Positions 37,528 through 45,346 of a stretch of DNA of 64,000 nucleotides are shown here, piece after piece. The translations under genes and the position numbers were made by a program. Source of the DNA: Robertkochia aurantiaca (lineage in GTDB: Bacteria; Bacteroidota; Bacteroidia; Flavobacteriales; Flavobacteriaceae); assembly GCF_020166495.1 (NCBI RefSeq), contig NZ_JAINZS010000002.1, positions 124,001 to 188,000 on the forward strand, read 5' to 3'. Positions within the stretch are counted from its first letter, which is position 1; each line of letters starts with the position of its first letter. The notes below the pieces were generated by a model. The model was given only the letters and a program-made list of their open reading frames with translations, had not been told where the DNA came from and made no database searches.

Positions 37528-39879
37528 TTAATGGGAACTTCCAAACCTTAACCCTACAAAAAATGTTCTGGGAATACCGGGACCATAGATATAATCTGAA
37601 TCCCGGTTGGGACCTGAATCAAAATCATCCTGGTAGCTGTTAAGAAAATTCTTAATCCCTGTATAAGCGATTATATGGAAGTGTTCACTGAGATCTTTAT
37701 GCCATGAAAGTTTCACGTTAAGATCATAGAACTCGGAACTTCTGCGCAGATCAATTGCACCATCCGCATTAATGACCCGTGGCACGACCATGCTTCCTGT
37801 GTACGTACCGGTCAGATCGACATCTATGTTTTCAAAAGGGGTATAACTGATATTGGTGAAGCCGTAAAATTCAGGATTTCGCAGGAACTTGTCTGTTGTT
37901 ACCGGGACCCCTTCACCTGTTGAGGGTTCAAACAAAATTTGTGGTTCTACATATTCAGCTCGCTGAAGCGTACCCCCCGCCTGAAAACTAAACCGGTCTG
38001 AGGGAGAAAACCCCAGTTCAAAATTCATCCCGTACACCCTGGATCCTTCACCATTTCTGACTTCCTCCACTATGGAGCCATTAGGAAGTGTGGCTCCTGT
38101 GCTTACCAGCACGAAAGGGTCTTTCAGGCGGGTATAAAAGCCTTCAATAAGGGCATCTGTCTGCCAGTATCCAAAGGTTTCATTATAATTGAAAGAGGCG
38201 GTGAACGCATCAGAATACTCTGTATTCAGATCTTCTGAAAGAATAACGAACTGCGGCTCTCCCCCTACCGAAGAGATATGAAGGTCTTCATTAAATGCCT
38301 GAGGAGCTCGGAAACCACGGGCATACCCACCCCTGAACTTCAGATAATCAGTGATAGCGTAACTCAGGGTAATTCTCGGGCTCATCACGAACTCCTGTAT
38401 ATCACTCTCCCTGAAAATATCAGCAACCTCATAACGCCCGTCGACAGCAACTCTGTCGAATCTCATTCCCAACAAAGCGCTAAAGCTTTTTACAGGCTTC
38501 CATTCATATTGAACATAAGAACCGAGAGCAGTGGTTTCCTGATCTATAATTCGATCATATCCGGGAATGCGGTCTTCAGTTCGGGTCATATTATATTCCA
38601 CACCGGAGGTAAGAACATCCCGGCCACCTATCTTAAAAGTAAATTGCGTTCCTGAAAGCCAGGAAAGATCATTTGTTCTACCGTAAGCGTTAAGTGCCAG
38701 AGTGGAGTCCTGTTCGGTTCTGCCCCCTCCGAGACCGCCATAATAGCTTTGTCGGTCGGTATGCTGAGCAGAACTATACACAGACCATCTTACCTTCTCG
38801 GTTCGGCTCTGCCCTTCAAATGACAGCCCTCCCATAAAAGTATTATGATCCAGTTCTTCTGTAATATCTGTCAGGTGAGGCGCCAGGTCAAGCCGGTCAC
38901 CCCCTCTTCTGTATTCATCAAGTACGGTGACATCAAAATTCAAACGAGATCGTTCACCGGTCTTGTAATACCCTTTTCCCCCAAAGGTGGTATTCTGAAG
39001 TCGCACCAATTCGGTAAATCCGTCTCCATTTGCATCATAAGCATCGCGATTTCTGTGCATCCCGTAAAATGTCACCCCGCTTTTCATGTCGTCTCCCACC
39101 AAAGAGGCATTAAAATTTAGCAAACGATCTGTCGCATCACCTCTTACAGAGGCCAGATAGCTGTCTACTTCCCAACTGTTAAGAATAGGGTCTTTGGTAA
39201 TAATATTGATCGTACCAGCGATTGCATTGGAACCATACAAAGCAGAACCTCCACTGCGTACAACTTCAACCCTTTCAATTATGCTGGCCGGAATTTGCTC
39301 AAGTCCGTAAACGCTGTTCAGTGCACTGAAAACTGCACGGCTGTTGATCAGCACCTGGGTATATCCCCCGTCGAGTCCGTTGAGTCGCACCTGAGTAAAA
39401 CCGCAATTCTGACAATTGGTCTCTACCCTGACTCCGGGAGTAAAATTCAACCCATCTGCCACAGCAAGCGAATTATTTGCCTGGAGTAAAGACTGACCCA
39501 CGATGTCGACAATAACCGGGGAATCTTTACGACTCACCAGGTTTCTGGTAGCAGTAACCACCACTTCTTCAAGATCAAGCCGGTCTTCCTGGATTTCGAA
39601 TTCCAGATAGGTATCATCTGCTAACGACACCTCACGGCTTAAGGTGCGAAAACCCATGGCCTGAATGGTCAGATTGTAAGTACCCGGATCAACAGATTCG
39701 AACTGAAAGGAACCATCATCACCACTTTGTGAAACCCGCTCAGCCCCCTCCTGATATATTATAAGGGTAGCGAAAGGTACCGGCTCACCCCCTGAGCGTA
39801 CCTTGCCCCTGAAGTCAACCTGCTGAGCAGTGACGCTTATAATTCTCAATCCTACCAGGAGCCACACCAAATACCTCAT
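37528..39879 (-). CDS. TonB-dependent receptor, probably for a metal or metal chelate
   Basis: 783 residues. An N-terminal signal peptide and a carboxypeptidase-regulatory-like domain (about 20-105, VDFRGKVRSGGEPVPFATLIIYQEG) come first. A plug domain follows with FTPGVRVETNCQNCGFTQVRLNGLDG (two Cys, in pieces) and a TonB-plug box ERVEVVRSGGSALYGSNAIAGTINIIT-like region. A 22-strand-type barrel ends in an aromatic residue-rich terminus. It takes up a ligand across the outer membrane using TonB. It diverges from a DtxR/MntR-type regulator; its -7 box TAATTTTG (39900-39893) sits just downstream of the palindromic operator at 39908-39925, which suggests metal control. Confidence 0.9.
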   Translation of the reverse strand: MRYLVWLLVGLRIISVTAQQVDFRGKVRSGGEPVPFATLIIYQEGAERVSQSGDDGSFQFESVDPGTYNLTIQAMGFRTLSREVSLADDTYLEFEIQEDRLDLEEVVVTATRNLVSRKDSPVIVDIVGQSLLQANNSLAVADGLNFTPGVRVETNCQNCGFTQVRLNGLDGGYTQVLINSRAVFSALNSVYGLEQIPASIIERVEVVRSGGSALYGSNAIAGTINIITKDPILNSWEVDSYLASVRGDATDRLLNFNASLVGDDMKSGVTFYGMHRNRDAYDANGDGFTELVRLQNTTFGGKGYYKTGERSRLNFDVTVLDEYRRGGDRLDLAPHLTDITEELDHNTFMGGLSFEGQSRTEKVRWSVYSSAQHTDRQSYYGGLGGGRTEQDSTLALNAYGRTNDLSWLSGTQFTFKIGGRDVLTSGVEYNMTRTEDRIPGYDRIIDQETTALGSYVQYEWKPVKSFSALLGMRFDRVAVDGRYEVADIFRESDIQEFVMSPRITLSYAITDYLKFRGGYARGFRAPQAFNEDLHISSVGGEPQFVILSEDLNTEYSDAFTASFNYNETFGYWQTDALIEGFYTRLKDPFVLVSTGATLPNGSIVEEVRNGEGSRVYGMNFELGFSPSDRFSFQAGGTLQRAEYVEPQILFEPSTGEGVPVTTDKFLRNPEFYGFTNISYTPFENIDVDLTGTYTGSMVVPRVINADGAIDLRRSSEFYDLNVKLSWHKDLSEHFHIIAYTGIKNFLNSYQDDFDSGPNRDSDYIYGPGIPRTFFVGLRFGSSH

Positions 39880-39892
39880 CTTACTTTTTTAG

Positions 39893-39900
39893 CAAAATTA
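39893..39900 (-). promoter_or_regulatory. -7 box of the TonB receptor gene
   Basis: Minus-strand TAATTTTG, exact TAnnTTTG match, 14 bases before the ATG at 39879. The matching -33 region falls on the operator at 39908-39925, so a bound repressor would block the polymerase. Confidence 0.5.
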
Positions 39901-39907
39901 AATATAT

Positions 39908-39925
39908 TTTTAGACATACCTAAAA
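39908..39925. promoter_or_regulatory. DtxR/MntR-like operator shared by the receptor and transporter operons
   Basis: TTTTAGACATACCTAAAA: perfect 6-base outer arms TTTTAG/CTAAAA around ACATAC. This is the form known for DtxR/MntR-family boxes. The half-site TACCTAA is repeated at 39957-39963, near the regulator's own start. A weak promoter for the regulator (TTA at 39929-39931, 19-base spacer, TATTTTTA at 39951-39958) lies between. Confidence 0.6.
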
Positions 39926-39975
39926 TTATTATTATGTGAGTTAAAATTCTTATTTTTACCTAATAAAAAAAGAGG

Positions 39976-40629
39976 ATGACCCTTTCCGAAGAGAATTATC
40001 TGAAGACCATCTTTCACCTGGCCCGTGATTTTGATAAGGAAGTGCCAACCAATGCCATTGCTGAAAAGATGGAGACCAAGGCATCGTCGGTGACCGATAT
40101 GCTTAAAAAACTCGCAGAAAAAAAACTGGTTCATTATAAAAAATACCAGGGCGTCAAACTTACTGATCAGGGAAGGTTCTATGCTGCCAGCATCGTGAGG
40201 AAACACCGGCTATGGGAAGTGTTTCTGGTAGAAAACCTGAATTTTACATGGGATGAGGTGCATGATGTGGCCGAACAGCTGGAACACGTAAAATCTGAAA
40301 AATTGGTAGATGAACTTGATGAATTCCTCGGTAAGCCTACAGTTGACCCTCATGGTGACCCAATCCCTGATAAATCAGGGAATGTACAGAGAATGGAGAA
40401 AATTCTGCTTTCAGCCTGTAAACCTGGAGAATCGGGAACCTGTGTCGGAGTAAAAAGCAATGCCTCAAGATTCCTTCAGTATCTCGATAAACTGGAAATA
40501 GGCCTTGGCAACGAAATCGAAATACTTTCAAAGGAGCCCTTTGACCAATCGATGGTCATCAGCAACAATGGGAAGAAGCTAAGTATCTCAGCTCTTACCG
40601 CTAACAATATATACATACAGAAAAAATGA
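39976..40629 (+). CDS. DtxR/MntR-family metal-dependent repressor
   Basis: 217 residues. The N-terminal winged helix (LSEENYLKTIFHLARDF, TNAIAEKMETKASSVTDMLKKLAEKKLVHYKKYQGVKLT) is followed by the metal-binding/dimerisation domain (RKHRLWEVFLVENLNFTWDEVHDVAEQLEHVKS, with His/Glu ligands) and a C-terminal FeoA/SH3-like domain. It represses metal-uptake genes when loaded with Mn2+ or Fe2+. It is first in the metal operon and overlaps the next gene at ATGA. Confidence 0.9.
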   Translation: MTLSEENYLKTIFHLARDFDKEVPTNAIAEKMETKASSVTDMLKKLAEKKLVHYKKYQGVKLTDQGRFYAASIVRKHRLWEVFLVENLNFTWDEVHDVAEQLEHVKSEKLVDELDEFLGKPTVDPHGDPIPDKSGNVQRMEKILLSACKPGESGTCVGVKSNASRFLQYLDKLEIGLGNEIEILSKEPFDQSMVISNNGKKLSISALTANNIYIQKK

Positions 40630-41567
40630 AAACAGGCAGTTTAGCTATCATCATCACCTCGGCACTTCTACTCATGGCCTCCTGCAAAACAGAAAACGGG
40701 ACAGGTAACAAAGGAAAACTTCAGGTGGTTACTACCACGACCATGCTTACAGATCTGCTTGAGGTTATAGGAGGTGATTCCATCAACACGCAAGGGTTGA
40801 TGGGCACCGGAGTCGATCCGCATTTGTATCGCGCCAGTGAGGGAGACATGACAAAGCTGTATAATGCAGATATGGTCTTTTACAATGGCTTGCATCTGGA
40901 GGGAAAGCTGGTCGATGTGTTTGAAAAAATGGAACAAACCAATAAATACACGGTTGCGGTCTCTGATACCCTGAACCGGGATTCATTGATAGGCTCTGAA
41001 TACTTCGCTTCCAATTACGACCCGCACATATGGTTCGATGTCTCATACTGGAAAAAAATAGCTGTCTTCACCAGCCGTGAATTAGAAAGAGAAAGACCGG
41101 AGCTTGCGCCCTTTTTTCGTAAAAACCTGGAGGAGTATCTTAGAGAACTTGACATCCTTGACCGGGAATTACGCGAAAAAATTGAAGAACTGGATCCCGA
41201 AGAGCGTATTCTCGTTACGGCGCATGACGCCTTTAATTACTTCGGAAGGGCCTTCGGTTTTGAGGTGGTCGGCCTGCAGGGACTTTCAACTGCTACCGAG
41301 GCCGGGGTAAAAGATGTACAGGAACTGGCAGATTTCATCATAGAGAATGATATCAAGGCTATATTTGTAGAAAGTTCTGTCCCCGTTCGAACCATCGAAG
41401 CGCTGCAGGAAGCGGTCAGAGGACAGGGCCATGAAGTTGCCATCGGCGGGATGCTCTACTCAGACGCCCTGGGAGACAAGAATACTCCTGAAGGTACCTA
41501 CCTGGGCATGTTCAGATCAAATGTTCAAACTATAGTTGAAGCCTTGAAAAAAGACCAATATGAGTAA
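40626..41567 (+). CDS. Metal ABC transporter substrate-binding lipoprotein (ZnuA/TroA/MntA-type)
   Basis: 313 residues. A lipoprotein signal ends at LLMASC. The cluster A-I pattern is visible: [17 protein letters not shown], the metal His in [60 protein letters not shown], and [20 protein letters not shown]. It captures a divalent metal (Mn2+, Fe2+ or Zn2+) in the periplasm. It starts within the regulator's stop and overlaps the ABC ATPase gene by eight bases. Confidence 0.92.
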
Positions 41568-42303
41568 TCAGAAACCCGCTATTGCAATTAACGATCTCAC
41601 CGTGGCCTATGACTATAAGCCCGTTCTCTGGGACATTGACCTGGAGATACCCGAAGGGGTCCTCATGGCGATAGTAGGCCCTAACGGCGCAGGAAAATCA
41701 ACCCTGATCAAATCGATACTGCAAATCGTCAAACCGATCGCAGGCAGTATCGAGGTTTTCGGAAAACCTTACAAAAGAAATCAGAGAATGGTAGCCTATG
41801 TTCCTCAAAAGGGCAGCGTTGACTGGGATTTTCCGACCAATGCCCTGGATGTGGTGATGATGGGAACCTACGGAAAACTGGGGTGGATAAAGCGACCCGG
41901 TCAAAAGCAAAAAAAGGCAGCACTTGAAGCGCTCGAAAAGGTAGGGATGCTGGAATTTAAAGAACGACAGATCAGCCAGCTAAGTGGCGGACAGCAACAG
42001 CGCATCTTTCTGGCAAGGGCATTGGTTCAAAATGCGCGTATCTACCTGATGGACGAACCTTTTCAGGGGGTTGACGCAACCACAGAGAAAGCCATCGTCA
42101 ATCTCCTGAAAGAATTGAGAAAAGCAGGGAAAACGGTAGTGGTGGTTCATCACGACCTTCAAACCGTACCGGAATATTTTGACTGGGTAACTTTTTTAAA
42201 TGTAAAAAAGATTGCAACGGGACCCGTAAAAGACATTTTTAACGACGATAATCTCACCAAAACCTATGGTATTAATTATAAGGTTGCGGTAAGTGAATCC
42301 TGA
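41560..42303 (+). CDS. Metal ABC transporter ATP-binding protein
   Basis: 247 residues. Walker A is [16 protein letters not shown] (residues about 36-51), the Q loop [15 protein letters not shown] signature [16 protein letters not shown], Walker [12 protein letters not shown], and H loop VVHHDL. The VDWDFP insertion after the Q loop is typical of Mn/Zn/Fe-type (TroB/MntB) ATPases. It powers import through the two permeases encoded downstream. It overlaps its neighbours on both sides. Confidence 0.93.
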
Positions 42304-43057
42304 AGCAGGTGACCAATTGAAAGCGGGAGCAGACCATAACGAAAGTGAACTTCACCGTACCTCACATACCTTCGGGAGACTGGAAAAGTATCTGGGAGAA
42401 TTCGTGTATGGAGGTATCGACGGCTGTGTGACCACCTTTGCAGTGGTGGCCGGAGCTGTAGGTGCCAGCCTGGATAGTTCGGTCATCATCATTCTGGGTT
42501 TCGCAAACCTGCTGGCAGACGGATTCGCCATGTCGGTGGGAGCATTCTTATCGGCCCGTTCTTCGGCAGACAATTACAGGAAACACCGGCAAATAGAATA
42601 TTGGGAGGTCGAGAACATGCCGGAAACAGAAAAAGAAGAAATACGGGAAATCTATCGTGCCAAAGGATTTGATGGTGCTTTGCTCGAACAGGTAACCGAG
42701 GTGATCACTAAAGACCATGACCGGTGGGTCGATGTGATGATGAAGGAAGAGCTGGGGCTGGTCAGGGAAGATAAATCTCCATTTTTGATCGGCGCCACCA
42801 CCTATCTTTCGTTTATATTGATCGGATTGATCCCCCTGGTTGTGTATGTATGGGATCACTTTCAACCGGTAGGAAAGAATCTGTTCCTGTTGTCATCGGT
42901 GCTTACAGGAGGCGGGTTCATCATTATCGGATGGCTTAAGGCTCATGTCAACCAGACCGGAAAACTGAGAGGCGTAGCCGAAACCCTGCTGCTGGGAGCC
43001 ATCGCTGCAGCAGTCTCGTTTTATGTAGGCGACCTTATTGAAAAAATTATTATGTAG
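42293..43057 (+). CDS. VIT1/CCC1-family transporter
   Basis: 254 residues with a GTG start inside the end of the ATPase gene. About five membrane helices carry the VIT1/CCC1 pattern: [58 protein letters not shown] (in pieces), a cytoplasmic helical loop [26 protein letters not shown], and C-terminal [17 protein letters not shown]. The family moves Fe2+ or Mn2+ out of the cytoplasm (or into vacuoles). It is unusual to find it inside an import operon, where it might balance the metal supply. Confidence 0.88.
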
Positions 43058-43065
43058 CAACGTGC

Positions 43066-44193
43066 ATGGATTTTACAGAATATTTCACACAGGTATTTAA
43101 CGATTATACCCTTCGTACGATCACCCTGGGCACGGCCATACTCGGGGCGATAAGCGGTATGCTGGGGAGTTTTGCCGTTCTGAGAAAGCAAAGTCTTTTA
43201 GGTGATGCTATTTCTCATGCCTCTCTGCCCGGTATCGCTCTTGCCTTTTTACTTACCGGTATAAAGTCTACCGACGTACTTTTGGCAGGTGCACTGATCA
43301 GCGGCCTGATCGGCACCTATTGGATAAGAGGGATCGTTAAGAACACCCATTTAAAATCTGATACTGCGCTGGGTCTGATTCTTTCTGTATTCTTCGGCGC
43401 GGGTATCCTATTGCTCACTTTCATTCAAAAAATGCCTGATGCGAACCAGGCAGGCCTTGACACCTATCTTTTCGGACAGGCAGCCACCCTGGTCGAAAGC
43501 GATGTCTGGCTGATGAGTCTTGTTACAGGGGTCAGCCTTTTTCTTGTCATGTTATTCTGGAAGGAATTCAAACTGAATCTTTTCGATGCCGATTTCGCCC
43601 ATTCGCTGGGTTTCAATACGAAATTCCTGGATCTTCTTATCAGTTCCCTGATCGTTATCGCCATTGTACTGGGGTTACAAACTGTGGGTGTGATATTGAT
43701 GAGTGCCATGCTTCTCGCTCCTGCCGCAGCAGCCAGGCAATGGACTCACAAACTCGGAGCCATGGTCATTCTGTCAGGGATTTTCGGAGCCCTCTCAGGT
43801 ATTGTCGGTACCGCCTTCAGCGCCTCGGGAGATAACCTCTCAACCGGTCCGGTTATCGTTCTGGTCGCGGCTTGCTTTGTCTTGTTATCATTTATTTTTG
43901 CCCCCGGCAGAGGACTCTTATTTCGCGAATTGCGCTACAGAAAGAACCGCAATGACCTGGAGATGAATAAGACCCTGGCTTTTATGTATAATATTGCCAA
44001 AGGACATGAAAATATCTCCCATCCCCACTCTGTGAGAATCCTGAATAATTTCAGAGGATATACCCGGAAGTCTCTCAAAAAACTTATCGATAAGGAATAT
44101 ATCAGAGTATATAACAATATGTGGTCGCTTACTGACAAAGGTTTCAGACAGGCGGTCAATATGTACAATCAAAGCGAAGACAGCTATGAGTAG
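43066..44193 (+). CDS. Metal ABC transporter permease with a winged-helix-like C-terminal tail (first of two)
   Basis: 375 residues. The first roughly 285 form the TroC/ZnuB-type permease with eight or nine helices (GLQTVGVILMSAMLLAPAAAARQW, VLRKQSLLGDAISHASLPGIALAFLLTG). A cytoplasmic tail of about 80 residues follows (LAFMYNIAKGHENISHPHSVRILNN then YTRKSLKKLIDKEYIRVYNNMWSLTDKGFRQAVNMY), with the helix-turn-helix-wing order of DtxR/MarR-type DNA-binding domains. Ordinary permeases are about 280 residues. It starts eight bases after the VIT1-like stop and overlaps the second permease by eight. Confidence 0.9.
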   Translation: MDFTEYFTQVFNDYTLRTITLGTAILGAISGMLGSFAVLRKQSLLGDAISHASLPGIALAFLLTGIKSTDVLLAGALISGLIGTYWIRGIVKNTHLKSDTALGLILSVFFGAGILLLTFIQKMPDANQAGLDTYLFGQAATLVESDVWLMSLVTGVSLFLVMLFWKEFKLNLFDADFAHSLGFNTKFLDLLISSLIVIAIVLGLQTVGVILMSAMLLAPAAAARQWTHKLGAMVILSGIFGALSGIVGTAFSASGDNLSTGPVIVLVAACFVLLSFIFAPGRGLLFRELRYRKNRNDLEMNKTLAFMYNIAKGHENISHPHSVRILNNFRGYTRKSLKKLIDKEYIRVYNNMWSLTDKGFRQAVNMYNQSEDSYE

Positions 44194-45346
44194 TGCCCAG
44201 ATAGAAATACAACTTATAGCCACCCTTGTTGCCGTGGCATGTGCTATACCGGGAACCTTCCTGGTGCTGCGAAAGATGGCTATGATCAGTGATGCAATCA
44301 GCCACTCCATCTTACCCGGTCTGGTTGTCGGGTTCTTCCTAACGCAGGATCTCAATTCTCCCTTGCTAATCCTGCTGGCCGCCGCCTCAGGACTGATCAC
44401 GGTGATACTGGTCGAATTCATTCAAAAAACAGGCCTGGTCAAAGAAGACACGGCCATCGGCCTGGTCTTTCCCGTATTGTTTAGCATAGGGGTCATCCTC
44501 ATAGCAAAAAACGCCAATGATGTACACCTGGATATCGATGCCGTGCTTCTCGGAGAGATCGCTTTCGCACCCTTCGACCGAATTCTCATTGACGGGATGG
44601 ATTACGGGCCTAAATCCCTTTGGGTGATCGGTAGTATTTTGCTTTTGACAATAATATTACTGCTATTGTACTTTAAAGAGCTAAAGCTGAGCACATTCGA
44701 CGAACAGCTGGCCACGACCCTGGGTTTCTCCCCTGTCATCATACATTACGGATTGATGAGTGTAGCTTCCGTAACCACTGTCGGTGCTTTTGATGCGGTT
44801 GGAGCCGTGCTTGTAGTCGCTCTCATGATCGCTCCGGCAGCAACGGCCTACCTTTTGACTACCGATCTAAAAAAGATGCTGGTTTTAGCCGTGTTATTCG
44901 GATGTGCAGGAGCCATCGGGGGCTACTGGCTTGCACACTATCTCGATGCCTCCATTGCGGGCTCTATAACCACCGTTCTGGGAGCCTTTTTCCTGCTCGC
45001 TTACCTCTTTGCCCCGGGAAGAGGAATGCTTTCTGTGAGTTACAAACAGAAAAGACAGGAAAAAGAGGTTCACCTGTTAACCTTTCTGCTTCACCTTCAG
45101 AATCACGAAGAAACAAGTGAGCGACATATAAAACACCTGAATGAACATATTAACTGGCACCGAGTCAAAGCACGGTCTGTAGTTAATCTTGCTTTAAAGA
45201 ATAATATGATCGTGATCGAAGACGGAGTCATATCACTGACCCCTAAGGGAAGTGAGTTTACCCGGCAGGCCATAGAATTCATCATGTCGGGTAAAAGCAG
45301 TGCTATTGAAGAAATGAAAAAGAAATTCTTTCTGTTCAGGGGATAA
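44186..45346 (+). CDS. Metal ABC transporter permease with a winged-helix-like C-terminal tail (second of two)
   Basis: 386 residues. Permease features: FLVLRKMAMISDAISHSILPGLVVGFFL, a membrane-rich core and AVLVVALMIAPAATAYLL. The cytoplasmic tail (LTFLLHLQNHEETSERHIKHLNEHINWHRVKARSVVNLALKNNMIVIEDGVISLTPKGSEFTRQAIEF in pieces) again resembles a winged helix, and the end is Lys/Phe-rich. With the first permease it forms the membrane pore of the importer. Both permeases carrying such tails recalls the chlamydial YtgC-YtgR fusion, though here the repressor is also encoded separately. Confidence 0.9.
   Translation: MSSAQIEIQLIATLVAVACAIPGTFLVLRKMAMISDAISHSILPGLVVGFFLTQDLNSPLLILLAAASGLITVILVEFIQKTGLVKEDTAIGLVFPVLFSIGVILIAKNANDVHLDIDAVLLGEIAFAPFDRILIDGMDYGPKSLWVIGSILLLTIILLLLYFKELKLSTFDEQLATTLGFSPVIIHYGLMSVASVTTVGAFDAVGAVLVVALMIAPAATAYLLTTDLKKMLVLAVLFGCAGAIGGYWLAHYLDASIAGSITTVLGAFFLLAYLFAPGRGMLSVSYKQKRQEKEVHLLTFLLHLQNHEETSERHIKHLNEHINWHRVKARSVVNLALKNNMIVIEDGVISLTPKGSEFTRQAIEFIMSGKSSAIEEMKKKFFLFRG

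Follow-up and report, generated by a model that had tools for sequence, protein, structure and literature searches.

Among the closest described systems, YtgCR of Chlamydia trachomatis joins an ABC permease to a repressor of the DtxR type, and the repressor part, YtgR, is reported to be released by cleavage and to repress (PMC7755916). In MetNI and ModABC, cytoplasmic regulatory domains are reported to bind the imported substrate and to inhibit transport, which provides a precedent for the regulatory role considered below (PMC10710835). The excerpts of the related-system literature that were consulted hold no description of tail-based, protein-level control of manganese or iron ABC-3 importers, and a search by title found no publication on the permease tails reported here, from which their absence from print cannot be concluded.

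The window, that is, the whole 64,000-nucleotide stretch of Robertkochia aurantiaca DNA that was analysed, encodes two ABC-3 permeases, PermA and PermB, which are both predicted to end in a winged helix. These tails seem to descend from a metal-sensing repressor, and they look more like a rebuilt metal sensor of the transporter than like a DNA binder.

The importer operon and its tailed permeases

The permeases close a compact operon on the forward strand, in which the genes for an MntR/DtxR repressor, a ZnuA-type substrate-binding protein, an ABC ATPase, a VIT1-family protein, PermA, and PermB follow one another in this order, with overlaps of a few bases at four of the five junctions (Table 1). 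The first-pass annotation had placed a separate repressor next to the permeases, and a full MntR is indeed encoded by the first gene, with DNA-binding, metal/dimerization, and FeoA domains (Pfam); it is also the single match to PF02742 in the whole genome. The ATPase is 247 aa long, and the best 25 of its 34 Pfam matches all belong to ATPase or P-loop families. Both permeases belong to PF00950 (ABC-3), scoring 239.2 (PermA) and 174.4 (PermB) bits against a curated cut-off of 20.1.

Members of the VIT1 family are iron and manganese transporters; a VIT1 gene is absent from the position between the ATPase and PermA in every related locus listed, and its close homologues in relatives (n = 4) do not lie within about 1.5 kb of any importer gene. 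None of the four other genomes of the same genus has a PermA match, so the operon of the window (39976–45346) is patchy, having been gained here or lost there. Upstream, an ORF at 37528–39879, divergent from mntR, resembles a TonB-dependent receptor by eye; the gap between the two genes measures 96 bases (39880–39975) and contains an imperfect AT-rich inverted repeat (39887–39946) that could hold an operator.

Table 1. Features of the importer operon and of the permease tails (window coordinates)
Feature	Coordinates	Strand	Evidence
Stand-alone MntR/DtxR repressor, first gene of the operon	39976–40629	+	Pfam Fe_dep_repress, Fe_dep_repr_C, and FeoA above cut-off
ZnuA-type substrate-binding protein	40626–41567	+	Pfam ZnuA, E 1.2e-72
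Importer ABC ATPase	41560–42303	+	Pfam ABC_tran; top NCBIfam row is a manganese/iron ATPase model, under its cut-off
VIT1-family protein, between ATPase and PermA	42293–43057	+	Pfam VIT1, E 1.2e-62
PermA, ABC-3 permease with predicted C-terminal winged-helix tail, 375 aa	43066–44193	+	Pfam ABC-3 at 14–278, E 6.9e-71
PermB, ABC-3 permease with predicted C-terminal winged-helix tail, 386 aa	44186–45346	+	Pfam ABC-3 at 10–275, E 4.2e-51
Tail A, PermA 280–375: long linker helix (tail 3–32) and winged helix (predicted)	43903–44190	+	AlphaFold2 mean pLDDT 88.5; hhalign to MntR profile, E 2.1e-7, prob 93.6
Tail B, PermB 275–386: long linker helix, winged helix, and extra C-terminal helix (predicted)	45008–45343	+	AlphaFold2 mean pLDDT 76.9; hhalign to tail A, E 4.6e-11, prob 97
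Conserved histidines of tail A: H314, H319, H321 (tail 35, 40, 42)	44005–44028	+	H35 in 82/83, H40 in 60/83, H42 in 78/83 rows
Putative metal site of tail B: H303, H307, E312, H317, H321, and W324 (tail 29, 33, 38, 43, 47, 50)	45092–45157	+	Row counts (see text)

The first-pass annotation had described both permeases as some 90–100 residues longer than usual, with a winged-helix order of elements in the extra part. Both ORFs lie where it had put them and contain the two peptides it had quoted, and the Pfam ABC-3 limits leave 97 residues in PermA and 111 in PermB past the domain. The predicted structures agree with the second point as well: AlphaFold2, run on input alignments of 38 (tail A) and 37 (tail B) sequences, gives both tails the order helix–helix–helix–strand–strand–helix, with a long first helix and with the strands as the wing (mean pLDDT in Table 1). 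No Pfam or NCBIfam domain was found above cut-off in either tail, and the best winged-helix match of Pfam below the cut-off was HTH_45 for tail A (E 0.021).

The structure matches listed for the two tails are mostly winged-helix regulators, together with some methyltransferases and one helicase. By VIA-align, the best among the matches listed is 3ov8 for tail A (Z 9.1 over 75 residues, rmsd 2.0) and 2h09, an E. coli DtxR-like protein, for tail B (Z 10.5 over 96 residues, rmsd 3.8); 2h09 ranks 16th for tail A and first for tail B among the matches listed, in the latter case tied with MarR-type proteins, as Z-scores no more than 1 apart count as ties. With Foldseek, neither tail model had a match at E ≤ 0.001, and profile searches of PDB sequences gave marginal matches, namely ZitR (E 0.0028) and ScaR (0.022) for tail A and a MarR-type protein (0.089) for tail B. 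Both tails are thus predicted winged helices whose family is not given by structure alone, and because Foldseek was empty and the Z-scores fail to separate DtxR from MarR, the claim of descent made below is based on sequence profiles and domain architectures.

Descent and distribution of the tails

Residues 22–96 of tail A match a profile of 17 MntR sequences in register (hhalign E 2.1e-7, prob 93.6), over a span that begins near the MntR start and reaches the domain border; this places the tail among homologues of the first, DNA-binding domain (D1) of DtxR/MntR. Tail B alone gives a weak match to MntR (prob 27, E 7e-4), and it matches tail A with E 4.6e-11 and prob 97 over an alignment that is partly shared linker. 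The second domain of DtxR, which serves metal binding and dimerization (D2; PF02742), was not found by Pfam scans in PermA or PermB.

Relatives with a fuller fusion exist within the phylum. Among 40 Bacteroidota loci, which were picked for long reading frames so that the class sizes do not represent frequencies, both permeases have winged-helix tails in 23; in 10, PermA has a winged helix plus the DtxR metal domain and PermB is tailless; and in 5, a single permease has a winged helix and the metal domain. One further locus is truncated by the end of its contig, and one is tailless. A permease fused to both DtxR domains, as in YtgCR, is therefore present in 15 of the 40 loci, and neither permease of the window is of this type. 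The combination of a YtgCR-like fusion, a tailless PermB, and an adjoining full MntR was observed in Bacteroidota at L074, L080, L081, L084, L089, L090, L095, L101, L102, and L103, and an additional D2 fusion (L182) occurs in the gammaproteobacterial sample described below.

In a quick, unrooted permease tree of 89 rows, the PermA proteins of the two-tail class and the D2-bearing PermA proteins lie in one starred group, and the two-tail and tailless PermB proteins lie in the other; each group also contains one permease of L053 (Actinomycetaceae) that has no recognised tail. Four of the five single fused permeases fall outside both groups, and the fifth (L096) lies with PermA on a long branch. 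Profiles, architectures, and tree together support a common ancestry of the tails with the DtxR winged helix, probably through a fusion to an ancestral ABC-3 permease. Because some Bacteroidota relatives keep the winged helix together with the metal/dimerization domain, the tails of the window look like shortened descendants of a permease–repressor fusion, and the classes are most simply explained by a single old fusion, after which the two-tail class lost the metal domain and the D2 class lost the entire tail of PermB. The permease–repressor fusion of Chlamydia, to which the first-pass annotation had likened the locus, is accordingly an apt comparison in descent, since Bacteroidota relatives have the fuller fusion; it does not extend to the domain content of the window tails, which lack the second DtxR domain.

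The tails are no chance feature, since 50 of the 52 PermA rows of a genome scan carry one, in several phyla (Bacteroidota, Chloroflexota, Poribacteria, Zixiibacteriota, Krumholzibacteriota, Bacillota, and Pseudomonadota), a proportion that is favoured by the scan itself, as two of its six peptide patterns lie inside the tail. The two rows without a tail (L051 and L053), as well as L091, were excluded from the tail alignments. Matches to tail B at E ≤ 0.001 were obtained in 49 of 251 genomes of a Chloroflexota sample, 6 of 249 of a Bacillota sample, and 4 of 229 of a gammaproteobacterial sample, each count including a starting genome that had been picked for having the tail. From these three samples 36 loci were fetched, of which L173, L174, L178, and L179 have no usable permease, and L177 (tail broken off) and L182 (D2 fusion) were excluded from the residue counts; in the 30 loci used, the tail is on PermB only in 21 and on both permeases in 9. 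In an Anaerolineales locus (L047, 7212–8711), PermB is 499 aa long and matches ABC-3 in two separate pieces, as if an insertion lay between them. Plasmid searches listed records that are mostly annotated as metal ABC transporter permeases, and 3 of the 15 listed rows were examined; these three operons (Deinococcus deserti, D. peraridilitoris, and Paracoccus aestuarii) stand outside the 102-row (tail B) and 83-row (tail A) residue counts. Judging by their lengths of about 435 and 367 aa, respectively, Bacillus subtilis MntC and Treponema TroD are presumably tailed ABC-3 permeases too, the former of the D2 class and the latter of the class with a B tail only.

Putative metal site and recognition helix

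In tail B, H29, H33, and W50 are present in all 102 rows, E38 in 101, and H43 in 93; position 47 is His in 84 rows, Glu in 14, Asp in 3, and Gly in 1, so that 17 of the 102 rows have an acidic residue there, as a metal ligand may vary. The layout is HxxxH … E … HxxxH, in which the spacing puts one helical turn between the two histidines of each pair (H29/H33 and H43/H47). This conservation is partly built in, because rows had to match the tail profile to be counted: newly fetched tail B rows required a profile match at E < 1e-10, and the phylum searches also used the tail B profile. The 72 earlier PermB rows, which include 23 Bacteroidota loci found by frame length and not by the tail, have H29 and H33 in 72, E38 in 71, H43 in 68, and H47 in 70. 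The tails are also richer in histidine than the winged helices of D2 fusions, with means of 4.4 (tail A) and 5.4 (tail B) against 1.8 (range 0–6, n = 15).

The fuller fusions retain a different site. In their 15 fused DtxR domains, H77, H96, E103, and H104 are invariant, and E100 is kept in 14, with one Asp; these residues align with the metal ligands of DtxR/MntR. Of the two roles that the first-pass annotation had offered for the tails, the membrane-attached sensor is favoured by the tail histidines and by this retained DtxR metal site. The reading of the tails as metal-sensing regulatory domains on the importer, which would include the feedback inhibition set out below, is judged to have about an even chance of being right.

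Individual losses were also considered. Of 81 two-tail loci, 5 lack A-H42 and 6 lack B-H43, the 5 being among the 6. This apparent coevolution is striking by rows, but on a tree of 47 of the 81 loci, from which 34 close relatives had been left out, the losses amount to about 2 and 3 changes, respectively; the joint loss thus comes down to about two events, is not significant, and is suggestive only. By eye, the plasmid operon of P. aestuarii lacks A-H42 and has Thr at B-H43 and Asn at B-H47. In D. deserti and D. peraridilitoris, tail B is without most of the histidines and keeps the Trp (by eye); its profile matches (E 3.2e-9 and 3e-7) would miss the cut-off of E < 1e-10. Behind PermB, both Deinococcus operons have a small DtxR-type gene (L199, 5076–5471, and L200, 5121–5465; 131 and 114 aa), whose products comprise a winged helix and D2 with no FeoA match.

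A structural role is the strongest competitor, although it is considered rather unlikely: contacts between the tails, or between the tails and the ATPases, could assemble or stabilize the heterodimer, or the tails could shield it from proteolysis in the manner of FeoC, which is reported to block FtsH proteolysis of FeoB (PMC10710835), the histidines then being packing or incidental residues. The conserved wing residues (W74, T77, and G80 in tail A; L77, T78, and G81 in tail B) look structural, and the Deinococcus tail B that keeps its Trp without most histidines fits this role. However, two HxxxH motifs and a Glu that are near-invariant across phyla, with Glu or Asp as the substitute at position 47, point to metal, as does the DtxR metal site of the parallel D2 class; moreover, PermB is tailed and PermA tailless in 21 loci, so tail–tail pairing cannot be obligatory.

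The second role proposed by the first-pass annotation, an unlinked DNA-binding tail, is not supported. It was examined in a paired comparison of 36 loci of close relatives (mostly Flavobacteriaceae genera) that have MntR and both permeases, with one best-scoring MntR per locus, some of which are distant paralogues. Helix 3, the recognition helix, is better conserved than the rest of the domain in MntR (0.71 v 0.50), but in tail A (0.53 v 0.63) and tail B (0.61 v 0.71) its conservation falls below that of the rest, so that the tails have no conserved DNA-reading helix and their pattern is opposite to that of MntR at the same 36 loci. Beyond the close relatives, in five loci only, the values are 0.45 v 0.39 for MntR and level for the tails (A, 0.30 v 0.31; B, 0.35 v 0.36). 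The recognition helices of the window are basic, with net charges of +3 (tail A) and +4 (tail B), but the family means are lower: +1.43 in close relatives and +1.15 in others for tail A (minimum −4), and +2.58 and +0.68 for tail B (minimum −2). In the fuller fusions, too, recognition-helix identity is 0.25 among the 15 fused domains versus 0.62 among 18 stand-alone MntRs (that of the window and 17 from the 40 Bacteroidota loci), at a similar D2 identity (0.52 v 0.57). The helix 3 data argue against a conserved DNA-binding role, a role in single species being possible, and the tails have probably lost DNA binding.

By the same evidence, it is improbable that the tails act as membrane-tethered or released transcription factors that would bind DNA, perhaps after cleavage as reported for YtgR, which is cut from YtgC and represses (PMC7755916). 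The charges of +3 and +4 in the window and the good conservation of helix 2 and the turn of tail A in close relatives (0.84 and 0.79) would suit such factors; against them stand the weakly conserved helix 3 of both tails, unlike that of MntR at the same loci, the lower mean charge outside close relatives, the lack of a dimerization domain in the tails, and the complete MntR that the operon already encodes.

Docking of the stand-alone MntR, by which the tails would keep the repressor at the membrane while the importer is active, is very doubtful. Tail A and the MntR winged helix share ancestry and their genes adjoin in the window and in many relatives, but 17 of the 23 two-tail Bacteroidota loci have no MntR in the stretch examined (up to 13 kb), and two of 40 genomes (G135 and G309) have two-tail permeases and no PF02742 match. 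The other 38 genomes have such a match, which in G204 is solely the fused domain; from this pattern among the 40 genomes, the tails are in general neither a substitute for a separate DtxR-type repressor nor dependent on one. The slightest chance is given to a vestige of a lost repressor fusion with no present function, for which the truncation relative to the fuller fusion, the absence of the A tail in 21 loci, and the mostly lost histidines of Deinococcus could be cited, and against which stand the near-invariant His, Glu, and Trp over several phyla.

Proposed mechanism and known systems

The metal-sensing reading may be stated as a sequence of steps. A DtxR-type repressor would have been fused to an ancestral ABC-3 permease, giving cytoplasmic winged-helix tails, and in the class of the window both subunits would have dropped the metal/dimerization domain and kept the winged helix. 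The tail histidines (H35/H42 of tail A and the HxxxH … E … HxxxH of tail B) could then bind cytosolic Mn2+ or Fe2+, possibly Zn2+; the two tails would meet beside the ATPases, and their loading with metal would slow import. Metal sensing by the tails would thus probably give feedback inhibition, with transcriptional control presumably left to the separate MntR. The wider claim, that ABC-3 importers took over a metal-dependent repressor as a metal gauge that no longer binds DNA, is put forward tentatively, at somewhat less than an even chance; in this view, one lineage (D2) kept the metal site while its recognition helix decayed, and the other dropped that site and evolved a new His/Glu site in the winged helix, on both subunits. 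If true, feedback on manganese and iron uptake would act at the protein level in several phyla. A permease-borne winged helix with a putative metal site would offer a mechanism open to direct testing; it would also suggest why permease–DtxR fusions such as YtgCR arise, and it would counsel caution against annotating such permease tails as transcription factors.

Compared with DtxR/MntR, the tails match the winged-helix half in register (tail A profile), and 2h09 is among the structure matches listed; unlike these repressors, they lack D2 and a conserved DNA-reading helix, are attached to the membrane, and have their histidines inside the winged helix. FeoC has a winged-helix fold. It resembles the tails as an accessory part of a metal importer, being reported to guard FeoB against FtsH (PMC10710835), but it is a separate protein of a different transporter. 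As proposed here, the tails would share with MetNI and ModABC a cytoplasmic regulatory domain that binds the substrate; in those importers the domain is on the ATPase and has another fold, whereas in the window it would be on the permeases, and no such domain appears among the best 25 of the 34 Pfam matches of the ATPase. YtgCR, a permease with a C-terminal DtxR-derived part (PMC7755916), has the layout that is also found in the D2 classes of Bacteroidota. The window differs from it in that the tails are without a metal/dimerization domain, are on both subunits, adjoin a full MntR, and have an unconserved recognition helix. Since YtgCR, the nearest system in layout, is reported to release a domain that acts as a repressor (PMC7755916), a switch of function between the branches of these fusions is possible.
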